DNA of 64,000 bases. Origin: Paracoccaceae bacterium. Its GTDB lineage: Bacteria; Pseudomonadota; Alphaproteobacteria; Rhodobacterales; Rhodobacteraceae. The notes under the pieces are model-generated. The model was not told the DNA's origin and did no database searches. It saw only the letters and a list, made by a program, of their open reading frames with translations. A program made the translations under genes and the position numbers. Positions 2,544-51,881 of the stretch are shown here, in pieces; position 1 is the first letter of the stretch; each line of letters begins with the position of its first letter. The stretch covers positions 978,136 through 1,042,135 of the forward strand of contig JAWPMR010000001.1 of NCBI GenBank assembly GCA_033344815.1, written 5' to 3'.

Positions 2544-2707
2544 GCCTCAGATGGCGACCGGCGCAAAGGAATGTCAATCGCCCAGAACAAACCAGTTCGC
2601 AGCCAAAACCAGCAAAAAGGTGCCATGACGCGATTATTCCCCTTTCAGCGCAGGCAAATGATGGCACACTTGTCCAATATTGGTTGAAGAGATGGGGAAA
2701 ATCCAAA

Positions 2708-3508
2708 ATGAGTTTGATGAAAACACTGGCCAAGGTCGCAATTGGGGTGGCCGTTGCGAAAGGTGCGCAAAGCATGATGGGGGGCGGCGGTGGCGGTCTC
2801 GGCGGGCTGATGCGCAATGCCACCGCAGGCACAGGTGGTGGGCAAAGCGCCTCGGGTGGCGATTTGCAGAGCATGCTCGGTGGCCTTCTGGGCGGTGCAT
2901 CCGGTGCAGGTTCTGCAGGCGGTTTGCCCGGCGGGCTGGGTGGTTTGCTTGAAAACCTGGGCGGCGCGCAGGGCGGAGGACTACAAGGCATGCTGTCAGG
3001 TCTTGCTGGCGGCGCTGGCGCTGGGGGACTCTTGGGCGCACTGACGGGTCAGGCACAAGCTCGGCCCCAGGCCAGCAATGCCAGCTTTGGCGATGTCTTG
3101 AATTCGGCCTTTGATGCAACGCCACAAGCCGAAATTGAACCCAGCGCCGATCAGGAAGCAGCGGCGGCTCTCATGCTGCGGGCGATGATTCAGGCTGCGA
3201 AGTCGGACGGCAAACTTGATGACGGGGAACGCGAAAAACTACTGGGTCAATTGGGGGATGACGTTGACGCGGAAGAAGCCGCTTTTGTGCAAAACGAGAT
3301 GGCGAAACCCGTCGATATTGAGGCGCTGGTCAAGGAAACGCCGCGCGGCATGGAAAGCCAGATTTACGCAGTTTCCGTGATGGGTATTAACCTGGATGAT
3401 CAGGCCGAGGCGCAATATCTGCATCAACTGGCGCAGGCCTATGGCTTGGAGGCGCGTGCGGTGAATGGCATCCACGAACAGCTTGGCGTGCCTTCTCTCT
3501 ACACCTGA
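2708..3508 (+). CDS. DUF533/TerB-like (YebE-type) protein
   Basis: 266 residues if started at the ATG preceded by GGGGAAAA; the longer open frame upstream overlaps the neighbouring promoter. The N-terminal 130 residues are a Gly/Ala/Met-rich low-complexity stretch with runs of Gly, typical of DUF533 proteins such as YebE. The C-terminal half (about 150-266) is an acidic helical TerB-like domain with 'AAAALMLRAMIQAAKSDGKLDDGEREKL', here split as AALMLRAMIQAAKSDGKLDD and following residues. The TerB fold binds metal or membranes in tellurite and stress systems; the function of YebE itself is unknown. It is divergent from the DMT gene. Confidence 0.8.
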   Translation: MSLMKTLAKVAIGVAVAKGAQSMMGGGGGGLGGLMRNATAGTGGGQSASGGDLQSMLGGLLGGASGAGSAGGLPGGLGGLLENLGGAQGGGLQGMLSGLAGGAGAGGLLGALTGQAQARPQASNASFGDVLNSAFDATPQAEIEPSADQEAAAALMLRAMIQAAKSDGKLDDGEREKLLGQLGDDVDAEEAAFVQNEMAKPVDIEALVKETPRGMESQIYAVSVMGINLDDQAEAQYLHQLAQAYGLEARAVNGIHEQLGVPSLYT

Positions 3509-3572
3509 TTTTGACCAGACCCGCGGCCGCAGTGAGGTCGCCGGTCTGGTCTATTTCATCAATAGTTGCGGA

Positions 3573-5640: not shown

Positions 5641-6419
5641 AACAGAAAATTATCTGGCGCGCCGCCTTTTCCTGAGTACCGGCAAATTGTGCCACCGATT
5701 GTCGCCAAAATGCGGCGTGACGACGGGCCCTTACTGGCTGGTGTATTACAGCACCCGACGTGTTGATCTCGCATCGTTTCAGCAAAACTACATGCCAAAG
5801 CGTTTATGTTTTTGAGCCCGGTTTGGCGAGGACCGGGCTTGGGCAACGGCAAATTCGGTAAATTCGGTAAATTCGATAAAGATACCATCTGAAGACACTG
5901 GCAAACCCTGCCTGACGCTGATTGGCTTGACGCTCAACCCGTCGTACAGACCCGCGCTCCGCGTAGAGCGCCAAGTATTTTTTTAAAAACCGGAGTTGCA
6001 TGCCATCTATCGTTGATCTGTGCAGGCTCAAAAAATCCGGCCAATGCGAAGTTGCCAAACCGGGACCAGCGTGACCTTGCAGAGGTGACAACACAGCAGA
6101 AAAACGTCGAGACCGGTATATGGATCCATCCCCACTCCTGTGGCGCACAGGGCCCGTGCGATTTCCGGATATGGGTTTCGCACCTGAATTGGGCGCAGTC
6201 GTTCCAAAAACCTCCCATACAAGGGTTCCTTACCCATTTTGACATCACAGAGTCCCAAGAATCATAATGTTCACGGAGCAAACGGTTGATGGGCTGACGC
6301 CGCCCAACGCATCCTTTTGCGATCGCCGCGCGCTGGCGATCACAAGATACAGCCTTGACCTCGCCGGGCAATTCTGGGACGCCAGCGAGAACGCACAAAG
6401 GTGCTTCAAAGGAACCTTC
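5641..6419. other. 779-bp region with no supported gene
   Basis: Frames here are short, Cys/Trp-rich and without motif or ribosome-binding site, so I call no gene. The region contains an inverted repeat at 5815-5822/5832-5839 and a threefold 9-bp tandem repeat at 5851-5877 (see separate entry). An open frame from 6267 runs into the DMT gene, but its first 51 codons lack membrane-protein character, so I treat them as upstream DNA. Confidence 0.5.
5815..5877. repeat. hairpin plus 3x 9-bp tandem repeat
   Basis: AGCCCGGT (5815-5822) is the reverse complement of ACCGGGCT (5832-5839), a GC-rich stem with a 9-nt loop; it lies 175 bp after mur and may end transcription. It is followed by AAATTCGGT, AAATTCGGT, AAATTCGAT at 5851-5859, 5860-5868 and 5869-5877. 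The role of the tandem copies is unknown. Confidence 0.5.
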
Positions 6420-30637: not shown

Positions 30638-31774
30638 TCAAGGTATCAGGCGTTCATGTTCCTGCAGGGCAAACCGATCCGTCATGCCAGAAATGTAATC
30701 TGATACGATCCGGGCCAAAGCAGTCTCGCCCTTGGCCGCTTCGACGTCCTTGCGCCATTGCTTGGGCAGTTGATCCGGGTGAGCCATGAAATAAGGGAAA
30801 AGTTCATTGACGACCTGGGTCACCTGTCCGCGCATTTCGACCACACTCGGCGCGCGATACATACGGTCAAACAGAAAGGACCTGATTACTTTGAGATCGG
30901 CAAAAACATCATCAGAGAACCGGATCATTGTGCGCCCTGCGGAGCGAATATCATCCACCGACTGCGGTTGCAGTTCCATCAGTCGAGTCTCTGCAAAGTG
31001 GATGACGTCCTCCACCAATACGCCAAAAAACCGGCGCAGGGCCTCGTGGCGACGGCGATAATAATTGAGCCCCGGATAGATCCCGTCCACCTCTTCAAAA
31101 CAGGCATTCAGGATTGGCAAGGCAGCCAGTTCGTCCGTGGAAAACAGCTCTGCGCGCAAACCGTCATGCAAATCATGGTGATTGTAGGCAACATCATCGG
31201 CTATTGCGGCGACCTGCGCTTCGGCACTGGCATATGTCTCCAGCTCAAGATCGTATCGATCGTTGTATTCCTCCAGAGCCCAGGGGATCTTGCCAGTAAC
31301 GGGTCCGTTGTGCTTGGCCAGTCCTTCAAGCGTGTCCCAGGTCAGGTTCAACCCGTCAAAATCAGCATAGTGACGCTCCAGATTTGTCACGATCCGAATT
31401 GCCTGCGCATTATGGTCAAACCCGCCGTAGGGTTGCATCAGGGAAGACAGAGCATCTTCACCGGTATGACCAAATGGCGTGTGACCCAAATCATGTGCCA
31501 AAGCCACGGCTTCCGTGAGTTCAGGATTAAGCTGCAAGGCCCCGGCGATGGTGCGCGCGACCTGCGCGACCTCAATCGAGTGGGTCAGGCGCGTGCGATA
31601 ATAGTCGCCTTCATGTTCGATGAAGACCTGGGTCTTGTGCTTGAGCCGGCGGAAAGCGCTGGCGTGAATTATTCTATCCCGATCCCTTTGAAAACAGGAT
31701 CGAAACGTACTTTCCTCTTCCGGCACAAGGCGTCCCCGGCTGTGGCTCGGATTTGAGGCAAATTGAGCCGTCAT
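30638..31774 (-). CDS. dgt: deoxyguanosinetriphosphate triphosphohydrolase-like HD protein
   Basis: 378 residues. HD-domain enzyme that splits triphosphate from dNTPs. The metal ligands are visible in 'TRLTHSIEVAQVARTIAG' and 'VALAHDLGHTPFGHTGEDAL'; 'ADDVAYNHHDLHDGLRA' adds the later His/Asp. 'STFRSCFQRDRDRIIHASAF' is the usual Dgt N-terminus. Shorter than E. coli Dgt, as is common for the type 2 subgroup. It is divergent from the HesB/IscA gene by 83 bp. Confidence 0.92.
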   Translation of the reverse strand: MTAQFASNPSHSRGRLVPEEESTFRSCFQRDRDRIIHASAFRRLKHKTQVFIEHEGDYYRTRLTHSIEVAQVARTIAGALQLNPELTEAVALAHDLGHTPFGHTGEDALSSLMQPYGGFDHNAQAIRIVTNLERHYADFDGLNLTWDTLEGLAKHNGPVTGKIPWALEEYNDRYDLELETYASAEAQVAAIADDVAYNHHDLHDGLRAELFSTDELAALPILNACFEEVDGIYPGLNYYRRRHEALRRFFGVLVEDVIHFAETRLMELQPQSVDDIRSAGRTMIRFSDDVFADLKVIRSFLFDRMYRAPSVVEMRGQVTQVVNELFPYFMAHPDQLPKQWRKDVEAAKGETALARIVSDYISGMTDRFALQEHERLIP

Positions 31775-31857
31775 TTTTGGCTGGTCCTTGTGGCCTGTCC
31801 TGAGAGTTTCTATATTGCACGCGAAGCCTTAATGAAACCGCTTGAGAGAGCACGCAC

Positions 31858-32181
31858 ATGCAACTTCCTCCGACTGTCACACCCCGCGCCTTCGACCGCC
31901 TCGTTGAAATTGGTGCCGCGATTGAGGGAAAAGCTTTGCGGATCGCTGTGGAAGGCGGCGGATGTTCCGGATTTCATTACGAAATTGCGCTGGATGATCC
32001 GCGCGAGGATGATTTGGTTTTGGAAGGATCCGGACAAAAAGTTGTCGTTGATGCGGTGTCCCTGCCGTTTCTCGGCGGTGCCACAATTGATTTCACGGAA
32101 GAACTGATTGGTGCTCGCTTCGTGATCGACAATCCGAATGCGTCGAGCTCATGTGGATGCGGCACGTCTTTTTCGATGTAA
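31858..32181 (+). CDS. HesB/IscA-family iron-sulfur carrier
   Basis: 107 residues. A-type carrier that delivers Fe-S clusters to target proteins. The three ligand cysteines are in place: C36 in 'GGGCSGFHY' and C99/C101 in 'SSSCGCGTSF'. ErpA and IscA cannot be separated by eye. It is a single gene. Confidence 0.93.
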   Translation: MQLPPTVTPRAFDRLVEIGAAIEGKALRIAVEGGGCSGFHYEIALDDPREDDLVLEGSGQKVVVDAVSLPFLGGATIDFTEELIGARFVIDNPNASSSCGCGTSFSM

Positions 32182-32227
32182 CTTTAAGTTCCATTCTTAA
32201 GGCATTGTTTCAAAATCGCTTTAGCGC

Positions 32228-33271
32228 CTAAGCACGGGAAAACCCCTCAAAGAATTCACCGAACCTGTCAGAGGATTGCTCGGCGCCGCTCAGGATGTCA
32301 ACGCCATCCACGCCGACGACATCCGTCATCGTTTCACGCATTCTTTCCCAGTCGCCGCTGCGCGCTGACCCTAAACTGAACATGTATTCCGACATGATGC
32401 GCAATGGGCCCGGCCTGTTTGTGCGGCGCGCGATATGCAATCCGTTTTCGCAAGGCGCGCCTGGGAAACTGCGGTGATCGGCAAGTTCGGCCCACCAAGA
32501 GGTTACCAAATAGGGATGATAGGCGTCGCTTTGTCCGTCGCCCGTCGCTTTCAACTGAAATTCGCCCATTTCTTGAACGATCCACTCTTCCCAGATCGCG
32601 CTTGGAATACGCCCTGCAAAGCGCAATGCAACACAGACCTCAGCCAGCAAATCGACATCCTGATCCAAATATGCAAGCAATCCGACGAATTCGAGGCTGG
32701 CAATTGCAGCCTCGTCCAGACTGGGATCCACAAGGCCGTAGTCGGACAGGTAAAACACAATGTGCGTTAATTCATAAGCCGCTTTTTTATTCGGTAGAAC
32801 AAAGGTTTCCGACCGGTTCATAAAGCGGTGAAGCCGTTCATTCAACGCCGGATCCATTAAATCCAATCCACGCCGGCGCATCAAACGAATTGCCTCGGCG
32901 CGCTGCAAATCCGAAAGCTCTGCCTCTGCCAACTCCGACTGTGCCGCCCAATGACACAGCGCCGTCCCTTTACCAGTTCCAATACCCAGATCCTCAAGGT
33001 CGAGACAGATCGAAATCAGGAATCTGTAATACTGCGGGAAAAACTTCAGCCTTTCCTCCAGCCCGGCATAAACGGGCACATAGGGCTCAAGCGCACCCTC
33101 GCCCAGCAGCGCTCCTGTGGCCGCCAGAACATTCAAGACTTCGGCGTTCTCCTTGAGCCAGAACACGTCTTCTTTGTTGCGTCGGTTGCAAGCAAAGTTG
33201 CGGATCAAAAGAGCCTGGCGCTCTGCCAGATTTGGCCTGTGCGGCAGACCCAGAGTGATTACGTTAGACAT
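32228..33271 (-). CDS. protein of unknown function paired with repeat peptide
   Basis: 347 residues, ATG with AAAGGAAG upstream. No signal peptide or membrane helix; mostly alpha-helical, acidic. Noticeable segments: 'TALCHWAAQSEL' (103-114), 'YELTHIVFYLSDYG' (166-179) with a T-H-x2-F-Y-x2-D-x-G pattern, and 'YHPYLVTSWWAEL' (251-263). I believe Rhodobacteraceae homologues carry a DUF label (DUF6902), and the ELTH-FY-D-G pattern recalls other helical DUF proteins, but this is memory, not search. It follows the 69-aa peptide gene by 90 bp across a hairpin and is probably co-transcribed. A role in modifying or handling the peptide is inferred from context only. Confidence 0.75.
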   Translation of the reverse strand: MSNVITLGLPHRPNLAERQALLIRNFACNRRNKEDVFWLKENAEVLNVLAATGALLGEGALEPYVPVYAGLEERLKFFPQYYRFLISICLDLEDLGIGTGKGTALCHWAAQSELAEAELSDLQRAEAIRLMRRRGLDLMDPALNERLHRFMNRSETFVLPNKKAAYELTHIVFYLSDYGLVDPSLDEAAIASLEFVGLLAYLDQDVDLLAEVCVALRFAGRIPSAIWEEWIVQEMGEFQLKATGDGQSDAYHPYLVTSWWAELADHRSFPGAPCENGLHIARRTNRPGPLRIMSEYMFSLGSARSGDWERMRETMTDVVGVDGVDILSGAEQSSDRFGEFFEGFSRA

Positions 33272-33315
33272 TGGGGGTTCTTCCTTTCAGCACTGGATCT
33301 GCCGCAAATGTTTGG

Positions 33316-33347
33316 CTGGCGCCAACACCTAAACCGGTTGGCGTCAG
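33316..33347 (-). terminator. hairpin between peptide gene and its partner
   Basis: Positions 33316-33326 and 33337-33347 pair as an 11-bp stem with one mismatch and a 10-nt loop. No U-run follows, so it may act as a partial terminator or RNA-stabilising element that raises peptide output over the downstream gene. Such intergenic hairpins are common after peptide-precursor genes. Confidence 0.5.
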
Positions 33348-33361
33348 CGAAGTCGCGGCCT

Positions 33362-33571
33362 TTACATGGAAGTCGTGAATAGACCTGTTTTGCCGCCTAC
33401 CAGAATGTTTTCTTCGACGTCCACTGAGGCGGAGGTGAACATTTCTGTGCCTGCGCCGCATGTAACAGAGGCAGAAGTGAACATTTCTGTTCCTGCACCG
33501 CTGTGAAGGTCATTTTCGGTGCCAGAAAACTCGTGAGCGGCTGGCACTGCGATCATTGCGTTCGTCTTCAT
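33362..33571 (-). CDS. 69-aa peptide with 14-residue tandem repeats
   Basis: ATG at 33571 preceded by AAAGGGA. Residues 1-24 form a leader-like region; residues 25-38 and 39-52 are two repeats, GAGTEMFTSASV followed by TC or DV; residues 59-69 (GGKTGLFTTSM) are a degenerate third copy. The two copies are encoded by 32-bp DNA segments differing at four third positions, all synonymous, so the peptide sequence itself is selected. Rich in Ser/Thr/Gly with a single Cys at 38 and no membrane helix or signal peptide. It could be a modified-peptide precursor or a small structural protein. I recall related small Rhodobacteraceae proteins under a DUF label (DUF6749) but cannot verify this. Confidence 0.75.
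   Translation of the reverse strand: MKTNAMIAVPAAHEFSGTENDLHSGAGTEMFTSASVTCGAGTEMFTSASVDVEENILVGGKTGLFTTSM
33426..33499. repeat. two 32-bp direct repeats inside peptide gene
   Basis: 33426-33457 and 33468-33499 match at 28 of 32 positions, period 42 bp (14 codons). All four differences fall on synonymous third positions. Confidence 0.9.
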
Positions 33572-33921
33572 AGTCTATCCCTTTCAAATGAAGTTTCGCG
33601 CCTTAACGCTTGCCCGTTTATCTAGAATTTCCAAGAATATTTCGCGTTAAGAATGTGTTAACCACTTGTTATCCACAGGAGAAATCTCAGATACCGACCC
33701 CAAGTCTCACAGAACTCACTTGTGCAAACTTCGTTAATTTTTTTTTATCCACAGTCGCCAAATCTGTGGATATTAACCATTTGGGGGATGCGGGCGTTAA
33801 CCTTTAACGAGAATCAGGTGCAAACTGCGCGTCGGTATGGCCCGGATTTGACGGCCAAGTCTCTTGCTCTGCTCCAAAGCTTGGGCGATAGCTGGCGGGG
33901 TCGGACAATGGGAGCGTTCAC
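33572..33921. promoter_or_regulatory. AT-rich spacer with CtrA-type site and DnaA-box-like sequences
   Basis: 350 bp between the divergent peptide gene and xthA. It contains TTAA-N7-TTAAC at 33647-33662 (the CtrA full-site pattern), TTATCCACA at 33669-33677 and 33745-33753 (exact DnaA-box consensus) and TGTGGATAT at 33764-33772 (one mismatch, opposite strand). No supported gene. It is probably a shared regulatory region. Confidence 0.55.
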
Positions 33922-34704
33922 ATGAAAATCGCCACATTCAATATCAACGGTATCAAAGCACGCATCAATGCCTTGCCGCAATGGCTTGATGAGGCCCAGC
34001 CCGACATCGCACTGTTGCAGGAAATCAAGTCAGTCGATGACGCCTTCCCCACCGAGATTTTTGAGGAGCGTGGCTACAACGTCGAAACCCACGGCCAGAA
34101 GGGTTTCAATGGTGTTGCCATACTGTCAAAACACCCGCTTGAAGATGTCACCCGTGGCCTGCCCGGTGATGACAGTGACGAACAGGCGCGCTGGATCGAA
34201 GCGACCGTCATGGGCGATACGCATCCCATCAGAGTTTGTGGGCTTTATCTACCGAATGGCAATCCAGCACCGGGACCTAAATATGAGTACAAACTCGACT
34301 GGATGGCGCGGCTCTTGACACACGCAGAACGCCTGTTGGCCGAGGAGACACCGTTCTTGATGGCGGGGGATTACAACATTATCCCACAGGCAGAAGACGC
34401 CGCGACGCCCGATACCTGGCGTGAGGATGCTCTTTTTCGATCCGAAAGCCGAGCGGCATTTCGCAAATTGCTCAATCTCGGCCTCACCGAGGCGTTTCGC
34501 GCCCGCACACAAGGCCCGGGACATTACAGCTTTTGGGATTATCAGGCCGGTGCCTGGAACCGGAACAACGGTATTCGCATTGACCACTTTCTCTTATGCC
34601 CCCAAGCGGCGGATATGCTCACCGACTGCGCGATCGACAAAGATGTGCGCGGGCGCGACAAACCTTCCGATCACGTGCCAGTCTGGGTCAATCTGGCCGC
34701 CTGA
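33922..34704 (+). CDS. xthA: exodeoxyribonuclease III
   Basis: 260 residues. AP endonuclease/3'-exonuclease of base-excision repair. Catalytic segments: 'IATFNINGIKAR', 'LLQEIKS' (metal Glu), 'FNGVAILSKHP', 'MAGDYNIIP', 'IRIDHFLL' and final 'DKPSDHVPVWV' with the catalytic His. Length is normal. It is separated from the peptide operon by the AT-rich spacer. Confidence 0.95.
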   Translation: MKIATFNINGIKARINALPQWLDEAQPDIALLQEIKSVDDAFPTEIFEERGYNVETHGQKGFNGVAILSKHPLEDVTRGLPGDDSDEQARWIEATVMGDTHPIRVCGLYLPNGNPAPGPKYEYKLDWMARLLTHAERLLAEETPFLMAGDYNIIPQAEDAATPDTWREDALFRSESRAAFRKLLNLGLTEAFRARTQGPGHYSFWDYQAGAWNRNNGIRIDHFLLCPQAADMLTDCAIDKDVRGRDKPSDHVPVWVNLAA

Positions 34705-50342: not shown

Positions 50343-51881
50343 ATGACTCAAAAAACACAAACACGCAGCGGTGGACGCGCGGCACGCAGAGCAGCGCGCG
50401 CGGCCCCTCTTGCATCACACCTGCGCCCGATCCGACCGGGCATGAATGGCGGGACCTATACCCCGCTGACGCCCGCACAAATGGACCGTATTCACGCCAC
50501 GGCATTGGATGCTTTGGAACAGATTGGTCTGGCGGATGCGCCGCCCTCTGGTATTGCCTATTTGACCGAGGCCGGTGCAGTTTTGGGCGATGACGGGCGC
50601 ATTCGATTTCCCCGCGCCCTGATTGAGGATACCATTGCGCGCGCAAACCGCACCGTCACTTTGATGGCACGCGATCCACAGCACGATCTGGAATTGTCTG
50701 GTCACCGGGTGCACTATGGAACGGCCGGTGCTGCGGTACACCTTGTGGAAGCCGATGGCCGGAATTACCGCGAATGCGGCGTTCAGGATTTGCATGATGC
50801 AGCGCGCATCGCGAACACGCTCGACAATATCCACTTTCTACAGCGTCCGATGGTGTGCCGCGATATCACCGATAATCTGGAAATGGACGTGAACTCCATC
50901 TATGCCTGTTGCGCTGGGACAACGAAACATATTGGCACCTCTTTCACGCAACCCCAATACGTCAAACACGGCATTGAATTGCTGCATATGATCGCGGGCG
51001 GCGAGGACAAATGGCGCGAACGCCCTTTTGTCAGCAATACCAATTGCTTTGTTGTCCCACCGATGAAATTCGCCACTGAGTCCTGTCAGGTGATGGAGGA
51101 ATGCATCAAGGCGGGCATGCCTGTGTTGCTCCTGTCGGCGGGCATGGCAGGTGCGACGGCTCCCTCGACTGTTGCCGGCGCAATCGTTCAAGCGGTGTCG
51201 GAGTGTCTTGCCGGACTGGTCTATGTGAACGCGGTCAAACCGGGGCATCCGGCGGTTTTTGGGACCTGGCCATTTGGCCTGGATTTGCGCACCGGGGCGA
51301 TGACCGGGGGGTCTGGCGAACAGGCCTTGCTGACGGCCGGATGCTCTCAGATGCACAAATACTATGATTTGCCAGGAGGCGCTGCCGCTGGGATATCAGA
51401 TTCCAAACTGCCGGACATGCAGGCGGGCTGGGAACAAATGTGTTCCAACGTCATGGCCGGTTTGTCCGGGTTGAACATGGTTTATGAAGCCGCCGGGATG
51501 CACGCCTCGCTGTTGGGTTTTTGTCATGAGTCGCTGATTTTGGGGAATGACCTGATCGGACAGGCAATGCGCTGTGTCCGCGGGATCGAGATCACCGATG
51601 ATACGCTGGCACTGGATCAAATCCGGGAAGTCTGTATCGGTGGGCCGGGTCACTATCTGGGCACCGAACAAACGCTTGGACGCATGGAGCAGGATCACGT
51701 TTATCCGAGCTTTGGCGATCGCACATCACCTAAGGAATGGAACGAGTTGGGCAAGCCCGATCTCATCGAAAAAGCCACAGCGCGTAAAGACGAGATCCTC
51801 GCACAGCGCGCGACCGCACGCTTTGATCCAATGCTGGATGCTGACATTCGACAACGATTCAACATTCACTTGCCGGGTTAA
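50343..51881 (+). CDS. MttB-family corrinoid methyltransferase (non-pyrrolysine)
   Basis: 512 residues with no in-frame TAG, so this is the non-pyrrolysine branch that includes glycine-betaine methyltransferase MtgB. After a basic N-terminus (residues 1-25, Arg-rich) the TIM-barrel begins: 'RIHATALDALEQIGLADAPP', 'VHYGTAGAAVHLVEADGRNY', and 'CSQMHKYYDLPGGAAAGISD' and 'IGGPGHYLGTEQTL' are typical. It should transfer a methyl group from a quaternary amine to a corrinoid protein. No corrinoid partner or amine genes are adjacent, so the substrate is unknown. Confidence 0.85.
   Translation: MTQKTQTRSGGRAARRAARAAPLASHLRPIRPGMNGGTYTPLTPAQMDRIHATALDALEQIGLADAPPSGIAYLTEAGAVLGDDGRIRFPRALIEDTIARANRTVTLMARDPQHDLELSGHRVHYGTAGAAVHLVEADGRNYRECGVQDLHDAARIANTLDNIHFLQRPMVCRDITDNLEMDVNSIYACCAGTTKHIGTSFTQPQYVKHGIELLHMIAGGEDKWRERPFVSNTNCFVVPPMKFATESCQVMEECIKAGMPVLLLSAGMAGATAPSTVAGAIVQAVSECLAGLVYVNAVKPGHPAVFGTWPFGLDLRTGAMTGGSGEQALLTAGCSQMHKYYDLPGGAAAGISDSKLPDMQAGWEQMCSNVMAGLSGLNMVYEAAGMHASLLGFCHESLILGNDLIGQAMRCVRGIEITDDTLALDQIREVCIGGPGHYLGTEQTLGRMEQDHVYPSFGDRTSPKEWNELGKPDLIEKATARKDEILAQRATARFDPMLDADIRQRFNIHLPG

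Follow-up and report, generated by a model that had tools for sequence, protein, structure and literature searches.

The window, the 64,000-nucleotide stretch of Paracoccaceae DNA that was analysed, carries a two-gene unit on its minus strand. The unit is flanked by an erpA-like gene (31858-32181), convergent and beyond the 3' end of the second gene, and by an xthA-like gene (33922-34704), divergent and beyond the start of the first; both were named from sequence reading. Between these neighbours lie two genes only, with room for no others. The first (33362-33571, minus strand), defined by its ORF and translation, encodes a repeat-bearing, precursor-like peptide of 69 amino acids; read by eye, it starts at an ATG with a ribosome-binding-like stretch, AAAGGGA, on its 5' side. 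After a gap of 90 nt the second (32228-33271, minus strand) encodes a protein of 347 amino acids which is predicted to be almost all-helical and which was studied by Pfam, AlphaFold, hhalign and residue conservation. Both ORFs had been named in a preliminary description of this DNA and are present where it placed them.

The peptide contains two identical copies of GAGTEMFTSAS, at residues 25-35 (33467-33499, minus strand) and 39-49 (33425-33457, minus strand), and a third, degenerate unit, GGKTGLFTTSM, at residues 59-69 (33365-33397, minus strand). The first is made up of a recognition-like half, GAGTEM, and a tail, FTSAS; the tail of the third, FTTSM, is the exact C-terminus of the peptide and a common Roseobacter tail. 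These three units had been recognized in the preliminary description, together with a repeat length of 14 residues which holds for the first spacing and fails for the second, which is 20. In their coding DNA the two identical copies have diverged at 5 of 33 nucleotides, every difference being synonymous, and are therefore not a fresh DNA duplication. The window peptide had no match in NCBIfam, nor in Pfam at E ≤ 1, the models being searched without PF20534 (taken as DUF6749 from the numbering, PF20533 being DUF6748 and PF20535 DUF6750). PHROGs and PADLOC searches gave no match. Assignments of relatives' peptides to TMEM218_N, Cas9_a, COX8, MORN or DUF3994 were rejected as matches below cut-off.

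The larger protein is a full-length member of DUF6902 (PF21843; 463 bits against a cut-off of 27, residues 1-347), the family named in the preliminary description. It also scores over the curated cut-off of a second family, DUF6895 (PF21836; 70.1 bits, cut-off 23.8, Pfam E-value 2.6e-19). When DUF6902 was compared by hhalign with ten DUF6895 proteins, with no sequence shared between the two sides, 187 columns were aligned at 20% identity with a probability of 96.9 and an E-value of 1.4e-10; with the DUF6895-like protein of locus L024 on both sides the probability was 98.3, the lower figure being that without it. By sequence comparison, DUF6902 is a remote homolog of DUF6895. Common to both are Y166, H170, G179, D207, E211, Y251 and H252, with F173 in nearly all proteins, and these make up the shared motifs Y-x3-H, D-x3-E and YH. 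The segments T-H-x2-F-Y-x2-D-x-G and YHPY, which had drawn attention earlier, lie at residues 169-179 and 251-254. We regard H170, D177, D207, E211, Y251 and H252 (all encoded within 32228-33271) as candidate catalytic residues. At position 177 the ten DUF6895 proteins have D, as do most of a further set (L254 differs); DUF6902 has E there in 51/73 and D in 13/73 proteins, and since at least six carry A, Q or G the residue is not strictly needed. Pfam and NCBIfam returned nothing for DUF6902 but the two DUFs, hence no known cofactor-binding domain, and PDB sequence searches with the DUF6902 protein and with profiles of both families found no relative.

AlphaFold, given 74 sequences picked from 132 loci with a match (duplicates among them), produced an almost all-helical model of DUF6902 with a pLDDT of 96 and a pTM of 0.93. 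A Foldseek search of this model against the PDB gave 581 matches at E ≤ 10 and nothing at E ≤ 1e-3; by that search the protein falls into no known unrelated family, an outcome which the preliminary description had named as telling against its proposal. The weak matches, none at E ≤ 1e-3, include complement thioester domains and a squalene-hopene cyclase; the alpha/alpha-toroid-like layout that they suggest was not counted as evidence. Structure prediction had also been proposed for the complex. The helical model of the enzyme by itself is confident; when enzyme and peptide were modelled together, the peptide did not dock. The latter was a fused model, a peptide-spacer-enzyme read-through of locus L015 with TAA read as G, in which the peptide block is disordered and, with a pLDDT of 24-37, undocked, an outcome that speaks neither for nor against binding.

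The peptide and DUF6902 form a conserved unit. We gathered 178 non-redundant loci, one of them (L024) DUF6895-like, and left out those with less than 400 nt upstream (L074, L107, L108, L134, L135, L159 and L198), which gave 171. A repeat was scored where a hexamer occurred at least three times, one mismatch allowed, in an ORF no more than 700 nt upstream of DUF6902. This test was passed by 158/171 loci as against 4/171 shuffled ORFs and 4/172 control points, so the repeat peptides are beyond chance. A looser version (two mismatches in six) was unspecific, since 75/171 shuffles reached three or more. On the stricter test the peptide of the window itself reaches just 2, and it is the relatives that carry the statistical case. 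Among the 13 loci scoring below three, ten have two or three copies by eye (the window, L104, L112, L115, L118, L122, L130, L132, L219 and L221); the remaining three are the DUF6895-type L024 and two loci with no peptide, L111 and L133. Of the 170 DUF6902 loci with at least 400 nt upstream, 168 thus have a repeat peptide no farther than 700 nt upstream, which is the strict linkage of a short precursor gene to the gene of an inferred modifying enzyme by which a RiPP unit is recognized. Larger stretches round L111 and L133 (L232 and L233) contained two spurious repeat ORFs and none, respectively. At L065, L072, L073 and L104 the automatic choice of ORF fell on a wrong frame or on N runs, and these picks were kept in the input for the anatomy and codon counts given below; the L104 peptide was identified separately, and the other three loci have profile matches just 5' of DUF6902. 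The gap between peptide and DUF6902 has a median of 69 nt, measured on an earlier, looser choice of ORFs.

Directly downstream of DUF6902, 109/178 loci have an EamA-type transporter gene in the same orientation and no more than 600 nt away, the family being assigned by Pfam on one example (the L002 transporter lies at 2649-3518). This hints at export of the peptide in many relatives; the window has no EamA gene. The xthA-like gene is found in 104 of the 107 loci of at least 7 kb. Fifteen genomes that lack DUF6902 all have the erpA-like gene, with xthA no more than about 1.4 kb away in 14 of them (gap up to 1.35 kb). Since the erpA-xthA site is kept in these genomes, the unit appears to come and go whole.

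DUF6902 occurs in 108/394 sampled genomes of the family, which corresponds to 107/393 genera, and in 19/19 searched genomes of the window's own genus. A peptide profile made from 12 repeat peptides, themselves members of the 394-genome set, matched 99/394 genomes at E ≤ 0.001, all within the 108 with DUF6902; as the profile was seeded from this set, the matches in DUF6902 genomes arise partly by construction. At the same threshold there was none in the 286/394 genomes without DUF6902, an absence that is strong, not complete, because at most 14 first-look candidates were scored per genome. At E ≤ 0.01, 103/394 genomes matched, 100 with DUF6902 and three without (G342, G380 and G431), the last being marginal at E-values of about 0.005-0.01 (0.0046-0.0095). 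Eight DUF6902 genomes had no profile match: five have divergent repeats by eye, with the tails YIAGL, MMCCS, MMSCS, LSPSC and MPTSN, one is cut by a contig end and two (G329 and G081) have no peptide. The search for strict co-occurrence in family genomes that the preliminary description had called for thus finds a near-strict pairing, and among the candidates scored in these genomes the peptide is not widespread without its partner. Extra profile matches were seen on other contigs in three genomes (G069:C6, G095:C31 and G292:C4), two of them at contig ends; they stem either from the assembly breaking off within the repeat or from a second copy.

Each repeat consists of a conserved part, G-[DE]-x-[TV]-x-x, and a genome-specific pentapeptide tail such as FTTSM, FSSGS or FTSWS which is near-uniform within genomes and variable between them. 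The counts were made on 156/168 peptides (those with at least three units; L024, L111 and L133 dropped), with units anchored on the leading G, an anchor which fixes G and, loosely, F. At positions +1 to +4 after F, identity is 0.80-0.87 within a genome versus 0.34-0.60 between genomes; at positions -5 to -2 before F the values are 0.39-0.57 versus 0.32-0.46. Common tails are FSSGS, FTTSM, FTSWS and FTSGS, and the rare ones include MMCCS, MPTSN and YIAGL. In 110/171 cases the ORF ends exactly four residues past the last F. Two tail types are mixed in one precursor at L085, L185, L186, L191 and L219 (e.g. FSTSC with FSSGS). Between pairs of units, the tail codons at +1 to +4 show 40-46% synonymous and 13-20% non-synonymous differences, compared with 12% and 76% at the flanking position -7. 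The repeat tails are under purifying selection, and the mostly synonymous change in their codons indicates selection on protein sequence, not recent copying alone.

The same anatomy might be read differently. Tandem short motifs with variable linkers, near-uniform within a genome and differing between genera, would also suit a disordered scaffold or ligand which is bound many times over by DUF6902 and left unmodified, the tail being a motif that co-evolves with the binding pocket; in the AlphaFold prediction the peptide is disordered. Such a scaffold has no need of a tail placed exactly at the C-terminus. A further argument against it comes from the residues shared by the two DUF families. H170, D207, E211 and H252 are intact in 170/178 proteins (L024 included), and six of the eight deviating proteins are short fragments of 97-264 amino acids (L121, L124, L131, L134, L135 and L200). 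The other two are full-length DUF6902 proteins: that of L111 (G329) has H170R and D207S, and that of L133 (G081) has H170Q, D207L, E211R and H252T. The only two full-length proteins that deviate from the motif are exactly those of the two loci without a peptide (Fisher p = 7e-5, 2 versus 164, the test being picked after the pattern had been seen). The two proteins are far apart in score, and these are only two events, both in the same direction. The joint loss of motif and peptide is the best single argument that the four residues serve the peptide. Conserved H, D, E and H residues that are lost only where the peptide is lost look catalytic, and we regard an unmodified scaffold as quite improbable. 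Of the two peptide-less DUF6902 genes themselves, we note that they may be decaying or may have a new role.

For a precursor acted upon by its neighbour, the DUF6895 family offers the nearest comparison. An excerpt of a recent review (PMC13352647) cites Shi et al. 2026 for a distinct DUF6895 family epimerase in lasso-peptide modification. Our DUF6895 set comprised 13 loci in all, drawn from Pseudomonadota, Actinomycetota and Bacillota, with five below-cut-off loci outside it. The 2026 article in ACS Catal is said to call DUF6895 a lasso-peptide epimerase in its title. A precursor-like peptide lies directly upstream in 8/13 of our loci (L226, L227, L228, L229, L234, L235, L236 and L254, the last judged by eye), so pairing with such a peptide is frequent across the superfamily and is no peculiarity of roseobacters. 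These eight partners have a similar leader-like segment of the [SA]G[IL] type followed by one or two aromatic cores (GPWFVL, DWTFVSPNYVYKG, GYVLAWDKYVLVV and the like), which speaks once more against long scaffolds. DUF6902 resembles this family in its significant homology, in the Y-x3-H, D-x3-E and YH residues and in the upstream precursor-like peptide; it differs in forming its own Pfam family and in its partners, repeat peptides that carry an F-x-x-x-x tail and have no leader in common. A short DUF6895-like frame (39.8 bits) is present at L230 6422-7105 in G284, another genus of the window's family; it looks decayed, and no precursor-like ORF was found beside it. L230, L238 and three actinobacterial loci make up the rest of the 13.

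The superfamily may be broad in its chemistry. Three actinobacterial DUF6895 loci (L237 5833-9688, L255 5941-9907 and L256 2914-5909) have in common a cluster made up of a 62-69-amino acid ORF ending in LLLSPxxP..K, a 231-248-amino acid protein, one or two DUF6895 genes and a serine hydrolase; the DUF6895 genes are in tandem in L237 and L255, and a P450 is found in L237 only. It looks like an uncharacterised RiPP cluster. A serine hydrolase, tandem copies and a P450 leave room for the reading that the roseobacter unit is RiPP-like and that DUF6902 does something other than epimerisation: for instance, altering backbone or side chain at F, at S/T or at the free C-terminal end, or cutting the peptide between its cores. 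This reading is served equally well by the pairing, the selection and the active-site residues, and F, the S/T residues at +1/+2 and the exact C-terminus could all be sites of chemistry. Set against this, epimerisation is the sole activity named for the superfamily in the source excerpts, and the known cofactor-binding domains of Pfam and NCBIfam are missing from DUF6902. We consider another chemistry unlikely, while giving it real weight.

Epimerisation of a ribosomal peptide by acid/base catalysis does have a precedent outside this superfamily. According to an excerpt of PMC10406935, the lasso-peptide epimerase MslH adopts a calcineurin-like fold containing Ca(II) and uses two His/Asp pairs in acid/base epimerisation. 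Its reaction may be a functional parallel to that of DUF6902; its calcineurin-like metallo fold differs from the predicted, almost all-helical DUF6902, which has no PDB sequence match. The window unit, between the erpA-like and xthA-like genes, has neither a lasso B protease nor a C cyclase gene. Among epipeptides (YydF/EpeX with a radical SAM epimerase), going by the source excerpts, the pairing of a free-standing precursor with its own epimerase would match our idea; the window unit differs from them in its many tandem cores, and no radical SAM enzyme gene lies beside the precursor within it. FxSxx-COOH peptides are matured by a radical SAM maturase. Many relatives of the window peptide likewise end in F-x-S-x-x-COOH (e.g. 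FSSGS), whereas the window peptide itself ends in FTTSM, has no NCBIfam match and lacks a radical SAM partner in its unit. Among the matches listed for open-licence PubMed Central, no publication on the unit of DUF6902 and peptide was found by title or by the start of the abstract.

Upstream of the peptide there is a predicted site, TTAA-N7-TTAA (33647-33662, minus strand; 33634-33662 with the overlapped hexamer), which we take to be the CtrA consensus. It overlaps the -35-like hexamer of the sole promoter-like match in 31700-34000, where shuffles lead one to expect 1.5. The motif lies no more than 350 nt upstream of the peptide ORF in 31/161 loci, where dinucleotide shuffles predict 1.45; the window's own genus accounts for 18 of these loci, 13 of the 18 having it near -91. 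Other spacings between the TTAA halves are also raised, namely 6 (17 loci) and 3 (10 loci). Control of the peptide gene by CtrA, which would be regulation of a cell-cycle type, is a lead only, and it would sit well with a peptide that is an unmodified signal or regulator having DUF6902 as its receptor or immunity protein, as would the transporter in many relatives. DUF6902 has no DNA-binding or membrane family match in Pfam, and its DUF6895 homology and polar conserved motif point to an enzyme; we hold a signal of this kind to be very improbable.

Two further features of the window were recorded. An Rfam match to PYLIS_3, given there as the pyrrolysine insertion sequence of mttB, lies at 51393-51492 on the plus strand (45 bits versus a gathering score of 38). 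It is probably an mttB-family gene resembling the element. To our knowledge pyrrolysine is not expected in a marine alphaproteobacterium. A short tandem repeat at 5847-5880 has a period of 9 and 3.8 copies of CGGTAAATT.

We return to the reading that we prefer, in which the peptide and DUF6902 would be a RiPP-like multi-core precursor and its dedicated enzyme, most likely an epimerase; we put its probability at roughly 0.55. The small gene would encode the precursor, and DUF6902 would recognize the G-[DE]-x-[TV]-x-x stretch of each repeat. The core would be the F-x-x-x-x that follows it, FTSAS and FTTSM in the window, and DUF6902, as a helical enzyme of the DUF6895 superfamily, would act on each core. 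In the most likely chemistry the alpha proton of at least one core residue would be removed and returned, giving D-residues, with acid/base catalysis by the conserved His, Asp and Glu. We put epimerisation first on account of the DUF6895 precedent and of MslH, whose two His/Asp pairs serve the same reaction in an unrelated fold. The pairing, the repeat anatomy, the selection on the cores, the homology to DUF6895 and the joint loss are observed; inferred from them are an enzymatic action of DUF6902 on the peptide, epimerisation as its chemistry and the cores as the place of modification. The preliminary description had suggested that the larger protein handles or modifies its neighbour, and this is well supported, by indirect evidence, through the co-occurrence, the joint loss, the DUF6895 homology and the peptides on the DUF6895 side. 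Points against our reading are that the repeats, built of a conserved part and a genome-specific tail, are preceded by no classical leader, that no dedicated protease or exporter lies beside the precursor in the window unit, that the fused model is undocked and that the homology to DUF6895 is remote. A wider proposal, that DUF6902 and DUF6895 together are a widespread non-radical class of helical peptide epimerases with linked precursors, and that the multi-core F-x-x-x-x pentapeptides of roseobacters with their D-residues are an undescribed stand-alone RiPP class, is tentative and in our judgement somewhat short of an even chance.

In many marine Roseobacter-group bacteria the unit probably makes an undescribed kind of modified peptide. 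If the reading is true, it would give a function to a DUF carried by about one in four of the genera sampled from a major family of marine bacteria, and it would unite DUF6902 with the DUF6895 proteins of Actinomycetota, Bacillota and other Pseudomonadota as a superfamily of precursor-plus-enzyme pairs. The unit is compact, two genes and often a transporter, which brings its chemistry within reach of a single co-expression. Lastly, genome-specific pentapeptide tails under purifying selection raise the question of a lineage-specific use of the peptide.
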